DNA of 64,000 nucleotides. Source: Chloroflexota bacterium (GTDB taxonomy: Bacteria; Chloroflexota; Dehalococcoidia; GIF9; AB-539-J10). Shown one piece after another: positions 1,063-60,983 of the stretch. Both the position numbers and the translations under genes were made by a program. Location of the stretch: NCBI GenBank assembly GCA_013388845.1, contig JACAEN010000032.1, positions 1 through 64,000 of the forward strand. The letters run 5' to 3'. Each line of letters opens with the position of its first letter. Position 1 is the first letter of the stretch. A model generated the notes under the pieces. It was not told the DNA's origin and searched no databases. It saw only the letters and a list, made by a program, of their open reading frames with translations.

Positions 1063-1123
1063 TCATAACTCCCCTAACCCTTCTTATCCCGATGAAATCG
1101 GGACAAGCCTTAAGAGGGGAAAT
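1063..1123. repeat. Nested palindromic intergenic repeat
   Basis: The stretch CATAACTCCCCT..., ending in CTTAAGAGGGGAAAT, matches a repeat at about 10134-10170 and in part one at 57030-57075. Here the centre is interrupted by a second palindrome, TCCCGATGAAATCGGGA (1087-1103), absent from the 10.1-kb copy. One element therefore appears to have inserted into the loop of another. Confidence 0.7.
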
Positions 1124-1253: not shown

Positions 1254-1270
1254 TCCCGATGTAATCGGGA
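1254..1270. repeat. TCCCGAT-N3-ATCGGGA palindrome before mobA
   Basis: TCCCGATGTAATCGGGA is a 7-bp inverted repeat with a 3-nt loop. It ends 8 nt before the likely ATG of mobA and occupies the place where a Shine-Dalgarno sequence would sit. The same family recurs at 1087, 8940, 9791, 10031, 59130 and 60029. Confidence 0.75.
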
Positions 1271-7339: not shown

Positions 7340-7990
7340 TTAATAAGTAGAGGGAATGTCCTTAACCAACTTCCAGACGATGGTCTCAGTAAGCACAGCT
7401 ATATCTTCAGTGGACAGATAATCAGAAATATTAGCATCGAACAATATATTCCCATTGGGGGCAAGCTCCTCATCACCCCTCCACAATACCAAGGTTATGG
7501 GCACACGGTCGAAAGCACTGATGGTCACCGCTATATCTCCGTAGTCTGCCTCACGGCATCCTAACTTAGCCGTCACCTTTCTCAACAGCTCGGGATTCTG
7601 GCCAAAGTTTTTTACTAAAGGGGTTATCGCCCTTTGGGAAAATGCCGGGAAATAGCTAATGCCTCCTGGTAGCTGTTTATAGGTAATCATTTTACCGGTA
7701 GCTGGCGTGCCCTTCGCCCCAGTGAAATAGTGAAGTATCAGGATTTTGTCCCTCAGGGAAGCTTCTGTACTGCCGTCTGCCAACAAAATTTTCACGTCAG
7801 GCAGCATGATGTGATACAACTGATTTAGATAATGAATAACTACCTTGTTGGGCTCCACATACTGCGCACCGCTTTTACGACATTGCTGTTCTATATCGAT
7901 TTTGGCTAGCTTCTCACAAGCAAGCTTATAAGAGACGTCAAAACCCCGCTCCCAAGGACTACCTGATAGAGAACTGCGCTCTTGCGTCAT
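7340..7990 (-). CDS. DUF3786 domain protein in the Wood-Ljungdahl operon
   Basis: A 216-residue soluble protein I assign to the DUF3786 family, which has no established function but is commonly found beside CODH/ACS and corrinoid genes in anaerobes. Visible features include an N-terminal helical part (SYKLACEKLAKIDIEQQC), HYFTGAKGTPATGKMITYKQ around residue 95, and a C-terminal FDANISDYLSTEDIAVL segment. There is no signal peptide and no clustered cysteines. Its start overlaps the metF stop as ATGA, so the two are probably translated together. A role in methyl-branch or corrinoid metabolism is inferred only from position. Confidence 0.75.
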   Translation of the reverse strand: MTQERSSLSGSPWERGFDVSYKLACEKLAKIDIEQQCRKSGAQYVEPNKVVIHYLNQLYHIMLPDVKILLADGSTEASLRDKILILHYFTGAKGTPATGKMITYKQLPGGISYFPAFSQRAITPLVKNFGQNPELLRKVTAKLGCREADYGDIAVTISAFDRVPITLVLWRGDEELAPNGNILFDANISDYLSTEDIAVLTETIVWKLVKDIPSTY

Positions 7991-8916
7991 GTGACCAACT
8001 TAGGGCGGGGCAAAAGACCGGCCGCCTCTACTATTTCAGGCACGACCTCCTCCCACTCGATAGCCGTAAGATGAATGCCAGCCACACCTTCAATTTCACG
8101 CACCTGCTTGATAATATCAACGCAGAGCTTGATGCCCTCCTTCGACACCTGCTCCTTAGGCACTCCCTGAAGTCGGGTAATAACGCTGTCAGGCACATCC
8201 ATTCCCGGAACTCTGGTCTTCATATATTTTGCGGCACCTACTGACTTTATAGGAGCAACACCGGCAAGTATCTTCACTTTCTCGTGTAATCCTCTGTCTC
8301 GTACCATCTTCATCCATTCGGCGAACTTATCCACGTTGTAGATAATCTGAGTTTGGATAAAATCTGCCCCCGCTGCCACTTTCTTAGCCAGACGTGGCAC
8401 CCTGAACTCAAAGGGGTCAGCAAAGGGATTTTCAGCAGCTCCAATGAACAGACGAGGCTCAATTGCCATCTCTTCGCCACACTGGAACTTTTTTTCGTCC
8501 CGCATGTCTTTCACCATCTTGACCAGTTGAATAGAATCAAGGTCATAAACACCCTTAGCGGCAGGATGATTGCCGAATTTCTGGTGGTCGCCTGTGAGAC
8601 ACAATATGTTGTTTATGCCCAGTGCTGCGATACCCAGAATATCCATTTGAAGGGCAATGCGATTGCGGTCACGGCAGGTCATCTGGACAATAGGGTCTAA
8701 CCCCTCCTCTTTACCGATAAGGCAAGCTGCCCAAGATGCCATGCGCACTACACCAGTCTGCCCATCGGTGACATTAAAAGCATCTACATGACCTTTGAGT
8801 ATCCTAGCCTTCCTTCGGATTACTTCAGGGTCAGCACTCTGTGGTGGCCCTAATTCACCCGTCACAGCGAAGATTTTGGATTCCAACACCCGTTCTAAGT
8901 TACTTTTCGTCTTCAT
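7987..8916 (-). CDS. metF: Methylenetetrahydrofolate reductase MetF
   Basis: FAD-dependent TIM-barrel enzyme reducing 5,10-methylene-THF to 5-methyl-THF, the last folate step of the methyl branch. Recognisable segments are FAVTGELGPP at the start, FNVTDGQTGVVRM, NILCLTGDHQKFGNHPAAKG, ADFIQTQIIYNVDKFAEWM and a C-terminal GVAGIHLTAIEWE. ATG 8916 (MKTKSNLERVLE) is chosen because GGAGG lies 4 nt upstream. An in-frame ATG at 8940 falls on a palindromic repeat. With metV immediately upstream this forms the MetFV-type reductase of acetogens. It overlaps the DUF3786 gene by 4 nt. Confidence 0.94.
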   Translation of the reverse strand: MKTKSNLERVLESKIFAVTGELGPPQSADPEVIRRKARILKGHVDAFNVTDGQTGVVRMASWAACLIGKEEGLDPIVQMTCRDRNRIALQMDILGIAALGINNILCLTGDHQKFGNHPAAKGVYDLDSIQLVKMVKDMRDEKKFQCGEEMAIEPRLFIGAAENPFADPFEFRVPRLAKKVAAGADFIQTQIIYNVDKFAEWMKMVRDRGLHEKVKILAGVAPIKSVGAAKYMKTRVPGMDVPDSVITRLQGVPKEQVSKEGIKLCVDIIKQVREIEGVAGIHLTAIEWEEVVPEIVEAAGLLPRPKLVT

Positions 8917-8939
8917 GACGCCTCCAATTGTTTGGCTCA

Positions 8940-8956
8940 TCCCGATAAAATCGGGT
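8940..8956. repeat. TCCCGAT-type palindrome between metV and metF
   Basis: TCCCGATAAAATCGGGT is a member of the 7-bp inverted repeat family, here between the metV stop and the metF start. In the transcript it would form a short hairpin inside the operon. Confidence 0.7.
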
Positions 8957-9635: not shown

Positions 9636-10127
9636 TTATTCCTCTACCTCAGGGGAGAGGTTAGTTGAGGTGTTAAGCTCTGCCAAAACGGTCTCTATTA
9701 TCTGAGGCATTTTTTCTCGAAGCTCTGGCGATAACTCTAACCCCCAGTTAATCTCTTTGGGCTCGACTCCAATAATGACTGCCTCGTCTATCCCGATAGA
9801 ATCGGGATGCCAAAGTTTCATTAACATTAAGATATCTACTAAGTCCGTGTCGTGAAGGGATAGGGACGGCTTTGGCTCCCGATTTATATCCTCAAGGTGA
9901 AAACGGTAAATTTGTCCGGGCGTTCCCCCGCCTTTAACAGCATCCACTATGATCAATTTATCAACGTCCTCGGGTAGCTGCACTACATCGGGGCATGTAC
10001 CCGCATCTACTATTTTTACGTCAGGGAGAGTCCCGACAAGTCGGGATTCCAGAGCATGCACGACGTGACAACCAATTCCCTCGTCCTTTAGTAAGGCATT
10101 CCCTATCCCCAGGACAAATTTCCCCAT
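9636..10127 (-). CDS. [NiFe] hydrogenase maturation protease
   Basis: HycI/HyaD-family endopeptidase that removes the C-terminal tail of the hydrogenase large subunit after nickel insertion. Signature segments are LGIGNALLKDEGIGCHV at the N-terminus, VDAGTCPDV, KLIIVDAVKGGGTPG, and SLHDTDLVDILML with the conserved histidine near residue 100. The likely substrate is encoded 49 nt upstream. Two short palindromic repeats lie in frame inside this gene, encoding parts of LESRLVGTLPD and LWHPDSIGIDE. Both stretches look like loops added to the family core. Confidence 0.93.
   Translation of the reverse strand: MGKFVLGIGNALLKDEGIGCHVVHALESRLVGTLPDVKIVDAGTCPDVVQLPEDVDKLIIVDAVKGGGTPGQIYRFHLEDINREPKPSLSLHDTDLVDILMLMKLWHPDSIGIDEAVIIGVEPKEINWGLELSPELREKMPQIIETVLAELNTSTNLSPEVEE
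9791..9807. repeat. Palindrome inside the hydrogenase protease gene
   Basis: TCCCGATAGAATCGGGA lies within the coding sequence in frame, encoding HPDSIG on the minus strand. It belongs to the family found between genes at 1087, 1254 and 8940. Confidence 0.75.
10031..10046. repeat. Second palindrome inside the hydrogenase protease gene
   Basis: TCCCGACAAGTCGGGA, a variant of the same inverted repeat, is translated in frame as part of ESRLVGT. Confidence 0.65.
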
Positions 10128-57215: not shown

Positions 57216-58529
57216 ATGAATCTAGCTCGACGAATAGAGCGATACCTGCCCCAGCCACTTCTTGAGCTAGTCAAGGATATCAGCGGACAGGCAGCCAAGC
57301 GGGGGGAAAGAGTATATCTCGTGGGCGGTGTAGTGCGGGATCTGCTCTTAGGAGATCCTTCGCTTCGCTCAGGACTTCGTTTCGACCTTGATTTGGTAGT
57401 CGAGGGTGATGCGGTGAAACTGGCTCAGCAAGTGGCGGAAACCAGTCAGGCCAAGTTGCTGGCTCATCATCGCTTCGGCACCGCTAAGCTTAGATATGAG
57501 AATTTCACCCTGGATCTGGCGACAGCGCGAAAGGAGACCTATGCCAGACCGGGAGCGTTGCCTACGGTCGCCCCGGGCACCCTCAAGGACGACCTCTTCC
57601 GTAGAGATTTTTCTATCAATGCTATGGCTATATCCCTGGCGGCAAGTGATTATGGGGAGTTAATCGACCCTCATCATGGTAAAAGCGACCTGAAGCACGG
57701 TCTTATTCGAATTTTGCATCCCAAAAGCTTCACCGACGATGCCACCAGAATTTTGCGAGCTGTCCGTTATGAACAACGGCTGGGTTTTGAGCTCGAAACG
57801 CAGACTGCTCAGCTATTGAAACGGGATACTCCTATGCTGGATACCATAAGCGGCGACCGCATCAGGCACGAGCTAGAGCTAATCCTTCGAGAAGGACAGC
57901 CAGAACTTGTTATCAAGCGCCTTGCCGAGCTAGGAGTGCTGCCCAGAATAAGCCCGTTCCTCAAAGGCGATGGCTGGATAACAGAGAAATTTGGCAGAGT
58001 GCGCCGCCTGAAGAAGCCCAACCAGTTGCCCTCGCTTTATTTCTGCCTTCTTATTTATTCATTTAGTGAAAGGGGACTTGAGCAATTTATCGCGCGTCTC
58101 AACACGCCGGCAAAACTATCCCAAGCCATGCGTGACACACTCCACCTCAAGACCAGATTGCCCCTCCTGGATAAGCCTTCTCTGAAACCCAGTGAGATCT
58201 ATTATCTGCTGCGAGAATATGAGCCCGTAGCGGTGCAGACGAATGCCCTGGCTTCAGATTCTTCAGTTATACAACACCACCTCCAGCTATTTCTCACAAA
58301 GCTACGCTATGTAAAGACTTCCCTGGACGGGGAAGAGCTAAAAAAACTGGGCATCCCAGCGGGACCCGAGATGGGAAAAGTTCTGCAAACATTGCATAAG
58401 GCAAAATTAGATGGCGAGGTTAGCACCAAAGCCGACGAAAGGAGATTAGCCCTCTCTTTCCGACCGGATTACAAAGGTAGAGGCGGAAGAAGGCCCCAGA
58501 GCCACTCCAAAAACGCCCCACCGAGGTAG
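57216..58529 (+). CDS. cca: CCA-adding tRNA nucleotidyltransferase/poly(A) polymerase family
   Basis: Builds or repairs the 3' CCA of tRNAs (or acts as a related class II polymerase). The head domain has LVGGVVRDLLLG near residue 35 and the catalytic aspartates in FDLDLVVEGDA. RRDFSINAMAISL near 130 and TRILRAVRYEQRLGFELE near 172 follow. The C-terminal half is helical. Between LLLG and FDLDLVV lies DPSLRSGLR, encoded by a TCCTTCGCTTCGCTCAGGA repeat inserted in frame where the family normally has a few residues. The 3' end overlaps the convergent VTT gene by 61 nt. Confidence 0.9.
   Translation: MNLARRIERYLPQPLLELVKDISGQAAKRGERVYLVGGVVRDLLLGDPSLRSGLRFDLDLVVEGDAVKLAQQVAETSQAKLLAHHRFGTAKLRYENFTLDLATARKETYARPGALPTVAPGTLKDDLFRRDFSINAMAISLAASDYGELIDPHHGKSDLKHGLIRILHPKSFTDDATRILRAVRYEQRLGFELETQTAQLLKRDTPMLDTISGDRIRHELELILREGQPELVIKRLAELGVLPRISPFLKGDGWITEKFGRVRRLKKPNQLPSLYFCLLIYSFSERGLEQFIARLNTPAKLSQAMRDTLHLKTRLPLLDKPSLKPSEIYYLLREYEPVAVQTNALASDSSVIQHHLQLFLTKLRYVKTSLDGEELKKLGIPAGPEMGKVLQTLHKAKLDGEVSTKADERRLALSFRPDYKGRGGRRPQSHSKNAPPR
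57354..57378 (+). repeat. Dispersed repeat inserted in frame in cca
   Basis: TCCTTCGCTTCGCTCAGGA (57357-57375) is a version of the intergenic element at 57089-57108. It sits between the glycine-rich loop and the catalytic aspartates. Confidence 0.65.
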
Positions 58530-59129: not shown

Positions 59130-59146
59130 CCCCGATTCTATCGGGG
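59130..59146. repeat. Palindrome supplying the ispE stop codon
   Basis: CCCCGATTCTATCGGGG overlaps the ispE 3' end. On the minus strand the reading frame enters the palindrome as CCC CGA TAG, so the stop lies inside the repeat. Confidence 0.6.
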
Positions 59147-59986
59147 TGGAAAAGTAGATGCCAGGTAGCACTCCAGCTTTTGCTTTTTCAGACGTGAGAA
59201 CAATTCACCGGCTTGTTCCGCCCCTGGGAAAAAAGTAAATAGACATGGCCCGGAGCCAGCCAGATAAACTCCTGGAGCCCCAGCTTCCTCCAAAATCTTG
59301 CGATATTTGTCCAGTCCGGGGAAAAAATCAAAGGCTATCTTTTCAAAGACATTGAACATAAGGGCAGGGGCAATAGTCTTCCCGCGCATCAGAGATAACA
59401 AAACTGCTTTAACGAACTGGCCTTCCGTGAAATCAGCAACAATCAATCTATCATACATCTTTTTTGTTTTGCCGGGGATTTTGGGCAATGGCGGCACCAG
59501 CAACACAAACCAGGTTGCAGGCAACTGTGGTAGCGGGCTTACCTTTTCTCCTCTATCCTCCACCAGAGCCGTGCCTTTATGAATAAAGAAAGGGACATCC
59601 GACCCCAGCTTAGAGGCTAAACGAACCAGCTCGAAAAGCGGCAACCCCAATCTCCAAAGCTCATTTAGAGCTAAAAGAGCGGCAGCGGCGTCGCTACTAC
59701 CACCCCCCAATCCCACACCCCAAGGTATATGCTTACGAAGTTCGATGCGTGCCCCCAGACGACATTTTGTGTTTTCTTTAAGCAGGGTAGCTGCTTCTGT
59801 TACCAAGTTATCATGCTTCAAGCTGGGCTCATCGCACTCAAAGTATATTTCTTCGTCTAGCTGAAAATTGAGAACATCGCACAAGTCTATGGACTGGATA
59901 ATGCTGGAAATCAGGTGATAATCATTGTCTTTGCCCAGTACCTCAAGGACGAGGTTTATTTTAGCCGGGGCATATACAGTTAACAT
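59138..59986 (-). CDS. ispE: 4-diphosphocytidyl-2-C-methyl-D-erythritol kinase IspE
   Basis: GHMP kinase of the MEP isoprenoid pathway. The N-terminal YAPAKINLVLEVLGK carries the conserved lysine, IPWGVGLGGGSSDAAAALLA near residue 90 is the phosphate-binding loop, and GVYLAGSGPCLFTFF near 245 is motif 3. The 282-residue length is normal. The last residues (TFPPR) and stop derive from a palindromic repeat. It lies 13 nt downstream of rsmA on the same strand. The MEP pathway supports a bacterial origin. Confidence 0.95.
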   Translation of the reverse strand: MLTVYAPAKINLVLEVLGKDNDYHLISSIIQSIDLCDVLNFQLDEEIYFECDEPSLKHDNLVTEAATLLKENTKCRLGARIELRKHIPWGVGLGGGSSDAAAALLALNELWRLGLPLFELVRLASKLGSDVPFFIHKGTALVEDRGEKVSPLPQLPATWFVLLVPPLPKIPGKTKKMYDRLIVADFTEGQFVKAVLLSLMRGKTIAPALMFNVFEKIAFDFFPGLDKYRKILEEAGAPGVYLAGSGPCLFTFFPGAEQAGELFSRLKKQKLECYLASTFPPR

Positions 59987-59999
59987 GGTAATTCTTTAA

Positions 60000-60983
60000 C
60001 TACTCACCTCCAATGTCATTCTGAGGAGTCCCGATACGTCGGGACGACGAAGAATCTCGAGATCCTCCGCGGAGCCTGCCCTGAGCGGGGCTAGATTCTT
60101 CGCTTCGCTCAGAATGACAAGAAGTGAAGGGCTCAGGATGGCACGTATAGGGAGCAAAGACTTTCCAGAGTTCCCTCCACTCCTCCAAGCTTAGAGTTTC
60201 CGCCCGCCGTTTGCCATCTATTCCTGCCTTCTCCAACAACAAAGCAACCTGGTTGGGCGGCATCTCTAAAGAATGCGCCAAGGAATTGCGAAGCTGTTTG
60301 CGAGGAGCGCTGAAACCATGCATAACTATATTAAAAAAACCGACGACATCGGATATCTCGATAGGCGGCTGGGAGTAAACATCCAACTGTAAGATAACCG
60401 AATCTACCTTGGGCGGGGGATAAAAACTTGTCGCTGGAACGTAGGCTATAATAGTAGGCTTACCATAAAACTGAGCCTTAACGCTGAGCAACCTCATCTT
60501 ACCAGGGACGGCAGCGATGGTTTCACCCACTTCCTTCTGTACCATTATTACCATTTCTGAAGGTCGGGGCTGTGCTTCGAGAAAATGGCCCAATACTGGT
60601 GAGGTAATGTAATAAGGAAGATTAGCGATGACTTTATAACCCCGGGCAAGTTCGGAGGCGGGTAAATTATTTTCTAGAAGCTGCCGAGGGGTAACCTTAA
60701 GTATATCAGCATGGATAATTCTGACATCAGGAAAAGCAGCCAGTCGTTTTTTCAGCAGAGCCACTAATTTGGAATCAAGCTCAACGGCAATGACCCTGGC
60801 TCCTCGTTTAGCTAACCCTTCGGTTAATATGCCCAGGCCGGGACCTATCTCAACTACGACGTCTCCGGGGCTAAGTTGGGCAGCAGATAAAATACGCTCT
60901 AATACAGCTTCATCTATAAGGAAATGCTGCCCCAGGCGTTTTTTCGGCTTGAAGCCAAATTGGCGGAGGGTTTGCTGGTACAA
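60000..60983 (-). CDS. rsmA: 16S rRNA dimethyladenosine transferase RsmA (KsgA)
   Basis: Dimethylates two adjacent adenosines near the 3' end of 16S rRNA. Family motifs: PKKRLGQHFLIDEAVLERIL near the start, VVEIGPGLGILTEGLAKRG, VIANLPYYITSPVLGHFLEA near 115 (the NLPY catalytic motif), and APRKQLRNSLAHSLE. TTG 60983 (YQQTLRQFGFKPKKRLGQ) is chosen because an upstream frame to 61094 would run into the SRP RNA and is not family-like. After FAPY the protein gains about 45 residues (CHSERSEESS..., RIGTPQNDIGGE) encoded by a dispersed palindromic repeat. Confidence 0.93.
   Translation of the reverse strand: MYQQTLRQFGFKPKKRLGQHFLIDEAVLERILSAAQLSPGDVVVEIGPGLGILTEGLAKRGARVIAVELDSKLVALLKKRLAAFPDVRIIHADILKVTPRQLLENNLPASELARGYKVIANLPYYITSPVLGHFLEAQPRPSEMVIMVQKEVGETIAAVPGKMRLLSVKAQFYGKPTIIAYVPATSFYPPPKVDSVILQLDVYSQPPIEISDVVGFFNIVMHGFSAPRKQLRNSLAHSLEMPPNQVALLLEKAGIDGKRRAETLSLEEWRELWKVFAPYTCHPEPFTSCHSERSEESSPAQGRLRGGSRDSSSSRRIGTPQNDIGGE
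60014..60119. repeat. 106-bp palindromic repeat translated as the rsmA tail
   Basis: TGTCATTCTGAG (60014-60025) and CTCAGAATGACA (60108-60119) are perfect 12-bp inverted ends. Inside are GATTCTTCGCTTCGCTC-type sequence and a TCCCGATACGTCGGGA palindrome (60029-60044), so two element types are nested. The HSERSEES-type peptide is a known sign of such repeats being read through. Confidence 0.8.

Follow-up and report, generated by a model that had tools for sequence, protein, structure and literature searches.

Minimal palindromic hairpins dispersed in a Dehalococcoidia genome, in frame within predicted genes and apparently gained by replacement of target bases

Rickettsia palindromic elements (RPEs) measure about 100-150 bp; their first report described 19 reading frames that contain one in frame, and RNase P RNA and tmRNA carry them too (PMC2229807). 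RPE-4, -6 and -7 have a common ATGAC motif and hotspot-like sites (PMC3767692). The preliminary description of the DNA analysed here took these elements as its precedent. In-gene palindromes are not peculiar to Rickettsia, however: intragenic REPs have already been catalogued in free-living bacteria as well as in Rickettsia, many of them in replication and repair genes, including those for DnaE and DnaE2 (PMC3733652). In the CGTC superfamily of REPs, the tag is often TGTC, the stem begins with AT and no transposase is known (PMC3733652). Bacterial MITEs (RUP, ERIC, Correia and others) are also small dispersed palindromes, some of which form in-frame gene fusions (PMC2229807), and palindromes with the core TCCCCTTTAGGGA are found in the plastid DNA of Volvox (PMC2670323).

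The hairpins that we report here work like RPEs or intragenic REPs, their size placing them outside the former and their lack of a tag outside the CGTC REPs. Like RPEs and the palindromic elements of Wolbachia, they are found both between genes and in frame in conserved genes, dnaE among them, and they have hairpin-free orthologues and insertion hotspots. Unlike RPEs, which measure about 105-146 bp and contribute tens of residues, they are 16-18 bp long and add a net one to six residues; they also differ in host (Chloroflexota, not Rickettsiales), in their replacement junctions and, as far as published descriptions allow the comparison, apparently in sequence. A 41-nt composite palindrome compared with plasmid records gave four weak matches (E ~6), none of them rickettsial. 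As for presence in structured RNA, a further possible likeness to RPEs, a tRNA-Ser(CGA) gene of G318, from another family of the class (L299, 672-762, minus strand), has TCCCGATATAATCGGGA at 701-717, the position of the variable arm, where a native look-alike could account for it.

With the intragenic GTAG and CGTC REPs of Opitutus, Thauera, Xanthomonas and others, the hairpins share the occurrence of short palindromes in genes, often those of replication and repair, and the nesting of palindromes. The larger TGTCATTGCGAG and TGTCATTCTGAG palindromes of this genome resemble, by description, the CGTC REPs with their frequent TGTC tag and AT-initial stem. Unlike the CGTC REPs, which have an unpaired tag at one end of an 8-9 bp stem, the bare hairpins are, with one exception by motif, tagless, with arms of 6-8 bp and loops of 2-4 nt, and Chloroflexota lie outside the five phyla given for CGTC repeats (PMC3733652). 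A resident Y1 transposase, which in GTAG REP/RAYT systems has REPs on its flanks, was sought through PF01797, which has no match in the host genome (93.9% complete). The Volvox palindromes are likewise nested, and their loops, 3-5 nt long, occur in both orientations (TAAA/TTTA; PMC2670323), but they are organellar and largely intergenic or intronic, whereas the hairpins described here sit in a bacterial chromosome. MITEs exceed the hairpins in length, have inverted repeats at their termini and in many cases duplicate the target, whereas here target bases are lost. In the open-licence literature, we found no published description of the element, including searches with the motif strings CTTCGCTTCGCTCAG and GTCATTGCGAG; these palindromes are far smaller than RPEs and REPs and belong to a phylum for which that literature yielded no such reports.

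The host is a Dehalococcoidia genome of 1.38 Mb, and the window is the whole stretch of 64,000 nucleotides that was analysed (contig C50 of the host genome, G000); copies outside it were examined as stretches around pattern matches. Five palindrome matches with up to two mismatches are present in the window, against 0.20 in shuffled window sequence. The genome-wide search outlined in the preliminary description returned 33 copies of TCCCGAT-N2-6-ATCGGGA and eight of TCCCGAC-N2-6-GTCGGGA, 41 exact copies in total, against none of the reversed patterns that served as controls, and with up to one mismatch CTTCGCTTCGCTCAG was listed at 24 places and its reverse at none. Among 40 sorted exact copies, the loop has 2 nt in 19, 3 nt in 20 and 4 nt in one, and sorting by motif places 17 within a larger palindrome and leaves 23 bare. 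The window contains representatives of a scattered family of very small palindromes, YCCCGAY-N2-4-RTCGGGR, of 16-18 bp. TCCCGAY hairpins also sit at the tips of larger intergenic palindromes, whose types are TGTCATTGCGAG...CGAAGCAATC, TGTCATTCTGAG...CGAAGAATC, CCTCTTA...TAAGAGG and GGGAG...AAGGTGAGGG. The larger composites start with TGTCATT, and it is these palindromes, not the bare hairpins, that contain the ATGAC motif of RPE-4, -6 and -7; by motif, a CGTC/TGTC-type tag is found within 2 nt of one of the 23 bare hairpins.

The gene for a HycI-type hydrogenase maturation protease of 163 aa (9636-10127, minus strand; PF01750, 9.4e-22) indeed carries palindromes in frame at 9791 and 10031, as had been claimed. 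At the first site, the hairpin ATCCCGATAGAATCGGGAT (9790..9808), with the palindrome TCCCGATAGAATCGGGA at 9791-9807, is read as aa 107-113, HPDSIGI, for a net gain of 12 nt; relative to empty orthologues, CAT[AAC]ATA has been replaced. This site is empty in all nine nearest orthologues but that of G016, which has CCCGATAAAATCGGG. The second hairpin, TCCCGACAAGTCGGGA (10031..10046), whose arms are the C/G variant, is read in frame as aa 28-33, SRLVGT, for a net gain of 9 nt, and the site is empty in 9/9 of the nearest orthologues. The closest named relatives of the protease come from MAGs of Chloroflexota or Dehalococcoidia. In a structural model of the protein (mean pLDDT 76.8), the hairpin at aa 107-113 falls between helix 96-106 and strand 113-121, and that at aa 28-33 at the end of helix 14-30 and in the following loop; both are thus predicted to lie within or at the edge of helix-strand loops. 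Of the idea that such palindromes are tolerated in surface loops, the placement at loops holds for the protease, whose model is the source of the structural placement, a DapF model with a pLDDT of 33 having been discarded; at the sites outside the protease, local sequence variability suggests a tolerant loop.

Thirteen of the 41 copies are internal, in frame and bordered on both sides by sequence that can be aligned to congeneric orthologues. They are found in the genes for the protease (twice), in rpoC, dnaE, mutL, dapF (twice), thiE, trpF and tilS, and in those for a PAC2 protein, a flavoprotein and a radical-SAM protein. The hosts confirmed with Pfam are PAC2, TrpF (PRAI), DNA polymerase III alpha, a CooC/ParA-like ATPase, TilS, a FAD/geranylgeranyl-reductase-like protein (GGR), DUF1015, the radical-SAM protein, RNA polymerase beta', MutL, DapF and ThiE. 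Two more copies are C-terminal, in a metallo-beta-lactamase-fold protein and in the CooC-like ATPase, the latter standing outside the orthologue comparison. In the open reading frames listed across every copy, the hairpins are read in all three phases, as SRxxRD/SRxVGT, xPDxIGx and xPxxSG, with SRFNRD in RpoC and SRQVGI in DnaE; their codons are predicted from the genes to be read in frame in the host proteins.

Empty alleles were seen for PAC2, TrpF, DnaE, GGR, DUF1015 (two sites), radical SAM, RpoC, MutL, DapF (two sites) and ThiE; for TilS, some species have a short form where several others have a composite that is long and variable. In an independent set from other species of the genus, the filled alleles are those of RplC (ribosomal protein L3) in G008, G016 and G005, RibA in G006, and DnaE2 in G009 and G004, along with Mfd, and empty alleles are likewise present. 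The orthologous in-gene copies of ThiE and RplC are decayed or missing. Hairpin-free alleles thus exist at both protease sites, in cca and at all other internal sites compared. Orthologues with the same residues had been named beforehand as what would speak against insertion; the nearest orthologues are without the hairpin residues at almost every site, and this objection therefore falls. What stands of the preliminary description is an RPE-like family read in frame, now with empty orthologues, and loop placement as assessed in the protease; its tsaD case and the notion of insertion, which turns out to be replacement, do not.

The cca gene (57216..58529, plus strand; poly-A polymerase head domain, PF01743) carries the reported in-frame element, noted earlier at 57357 and found as ATCCTTCGCTTCGCTCAGGACT at 57355..57376, where it is read as aa 47-54, DPSLRSGL, for a net gain of 18 nt over relatives. 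It belongs to a palindrome family other than the TCCCGAY hairpins; the insert is common to G013, G009 and G004 and diverged in G018, and most congeners are without it. The serine-rich stretch of tsaD had been attributed to a similar sequence, but no TCCCGA or CTTCGCTTCGCTCAG element is present at 660-700. That stretch is a loop that exceeds its counterpart in 6nak, a solved bacterial TsaD, by six residues, and tsaD, with a loop longer than in solved TsaD structures and no element, was left out as a case of palindrome insertion.

The same elements are found between genes, as noted before, and also at gene edges. The intergenic TCCCGATGAAATCGGGA (1087..1103) forms the tip of a larger CCTCTTA...TAAGAGG palindrome, and TCCCGATGTAATCGGGA (1254..1270) is bare and intergenic, with only one, spurious, ORF overlapping it. 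With one mismatch, TCCCGATAAAATCGGGT (8940..8956) lies in the spacer before the minus-strand gene 7987-8940 and touches its called start codon, and CCCCGATTCTATCGGGG (59130..59146) covers the 3' end of the minus-strand gene 59138-59986. For the latter, an IspE-like gene, this hairpin, which reads CCCCGATAGAATCGGGG on the minus strand, provides the final codons along with the TAG stop. The C-terminal tail of rsmA/ksgA (60003..60143, minus strand; about aa 318-364) comprises palindromes of the TGTCATTCTGAG and TCCCGAT types, at 60028-60045 and 60094-60112, and congeneric orthologues mostly stop near aa 317. This tail has about 47 residues (CHPEPFTSCHSERSEESS...), and peptides like it are found elsewhere in these genomes.

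None of the 16 resolved events is a clean insertion: target bases are lost, and there is no target duplication. As read from the aligned alleles, a small number of target bases is replaced, most often 2-4 nt between a complementary pair, for a net gain of 12 nt. In the 12 events with this gain, 2, 3 or 4 nt were exchanged for a hairpin with a loop of equal length, as in MutL (AAT[ATT]ATT to AAT[CCCGATGGAATCGGG]ATT), GGR (TGT[GCCC]ACT to TGT[CCCGACTTGCGTCGGG]ACT) and RplC (GAT[GAT]ATT to GAT[CCCGATGAAATCGGG]ACT). Other net gains are those of RibA (+9), the protease site at aa 28-33 (+9), DnaE (+6) and PAC2 (+3). The new arms spell CCCGAY/RTCGGG in every event, and this word is missing from the empty alleles. 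The possibility that the hairpin keeps the original loop bases, which would account exactly for the gain of 12 nt, was rejected, since in almost every event the loop does not match the bases of the empty site. Intergenic palindromes exhibit the same exchange, with a CTTCG tip in one copy and TCCCGATNNATCGGGA in another. Candidate targets for such an exchange are GCAAAGC and AATATTATT.

The flanks of the replaced stretch are complementary in 10/12 empty sites, against 19% on sliding along the same sequences (binomial ~3e-6), a comparison that is partly biased, as the search pattern behind most sites required T...A flanks in the filled allele. Among 15 cores without T...A flanks, nine have C...G, and at three of the ten complementary empty sites C...G was turned into T...A; search bias is therefore not the whole explanation. 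The loops themselves can be inverted: in three cases, orthologous copies from different species have loops that are exact reverse complements of one another (DapF, TGC/GCA; radical SAM, GT/AC; RplC, GAA/TTC), where a rough count, made after the pattern had been noticed, gives about 0.25 expected in 13 comparisons. Flipping of the loop in hairpins, or entry of the palindrome in either orientation, would produce such pairs.

When twelve shared sites were placed on a tree built from 15 concatenated gene segments, every one of them required two to four changes, the direction of change being taken from relatives. As this tree has short deep branches that are in part poorly resolved, recombination between species could explain these changes as well as repeated gain could. 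At least one exact TCCCGAT copy is present in 85 of the 294 genomes surveyed in the class, most being without any, and the highest counts are 254 (G103) and 182 (G116). Among the copies listed, loops in G009 are mostly GCA/TGC, and those in G103 often AGA/TCT or AGC/GCT, a usage that points to lineage-specific proliferation. The copies sampled from G103 and G116 are mostly intergenic, many within composite palindromes. The large in-gene share of copies may thus be peculiar to the host's genus.

We consider it probable, at roughly 70%, that these are dispersed minimal hairpins whose in-frame survival reflects selection, whose spread is of an exchange type, and which are near-neutral selfish or mutational DNA. 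A short hairpin would rarely carry a stop codon. Events with a net length that is a multiple of three and a tolerant loop would survive selection, the others being purged, and no host function would be required. Less surely, spread might proceed by single-stranded or replicative exchange, with a donor stem-loop replacing a small target loop under the guidance of one or a few matching flank bases, by a template-switching or gene-conversion-like process rather than cut-and-paste transposition. In its most specific and tentative form, this account would have the hairpins spread without a transposase, a donor stem-loop taking the place of the 2-4 nt loop in a tiny hairpin already present at the target, with the two 6-nt arms providing the 12 nt; at DnaE, PAC2 and the protease site at aa 28-33, more target bases were lost than simple loop exchange predicts.

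Movement in trans of REP-like elements by a RAYT or another IS200-type (Y1) transposase acting on the hairpin ends, as GTAG REPs are thought to be mobilised (PMC3733652), appears unlikely. PF01797 is weakly associated with the elements, being found in 11/18 element-rich and 5/20 element-free genomes, but it is missing from the host and G009, both rich in copies, and from several other element-rich genomes; moreover, the bare copies have no GTAG or CGTC tag (one of 23 by motif) and the junctions are replacements. The complementary flank pairs of 10/12 empty sites, which make these sites tiny near-palindromes, would also suit a local origin, in which, without any donor copy, template switching within the strand extends a near-palindrome at its site. 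This we regard as improbable, as many different arms would then be expected, whereas the arms are always CCCGAY/RTCGGG and not found in the empty alleles, the reversed pattern was never found and loop usage is lineage-specific. Still more doubtful is a dyad selected as a protein-binding or regulatory signal, such as a chromosome-organising site, a terminator or a methylation site. The arms are well conserved, copies are many and some adjoin gene ends (59130, 8940), but the spacer varies from 2 to 4 nt, split about equally between 2 and 3, the in-gene copies of ThiE and RplC decay or are missing, distribution is patchy among sister species, and copies are read through in all three phases. Similar DnaE residues in two diverged congeners (G002, G012) could be taken as a sign of ancestral protein sequence in which the palindrome is a coincidence; at almost every site, however, the residues are missing from the closest orthologues, and the same DNA word stands in all three phases and between genes, which refutes this explanation for practical purposes.

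Some 17 sites with filled and empty congeneric alleles fix the outcome of a single event, namely which bases are removed, which are added and that the loop of an orthologous copy can be reverse-complemented, and they turn 'insertion' into testable junction rules for the smallest bacterial palindromic repeats. Dispersed repeats can be the source of short changes to loops in RpoC, DnaE, MutL and ribosomal protein L3, which matters for interpreting protein indels of uncultivated bacteria. The hairpin findings demonstrate no benefit to the host. If loop exchange is true, it would keep supplying essential proteins with short changes to their loops that stay in frame, because the hairpins are open in most frames and their net length is a multiple of three.

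A few single sites add to this picture. At the rpoC site, G005 (L193) and G006 (L135) have the half-matching hairpins CTTCGATTCAATCAGGA and CTTCGGCTCAGTGGGGA, which could be decayed copies or intermediates, and the ancestral rpoC site resembles the cca element GATCCTTCGCTTCG. The two hairpins of dapF (L056, 1501 and 1658) are 157 nt apart and have the same loop, TGC, and local copying could explain them. One loop in the N-terminal region of Mfd is empty in the host genome, G005, G006 and G010, and harbours in-frame composite palindromes, of families that differ by species, in G013, G016, G017, G002, G009 and G004 (L306, L307, L309, L314, L332 and L348).
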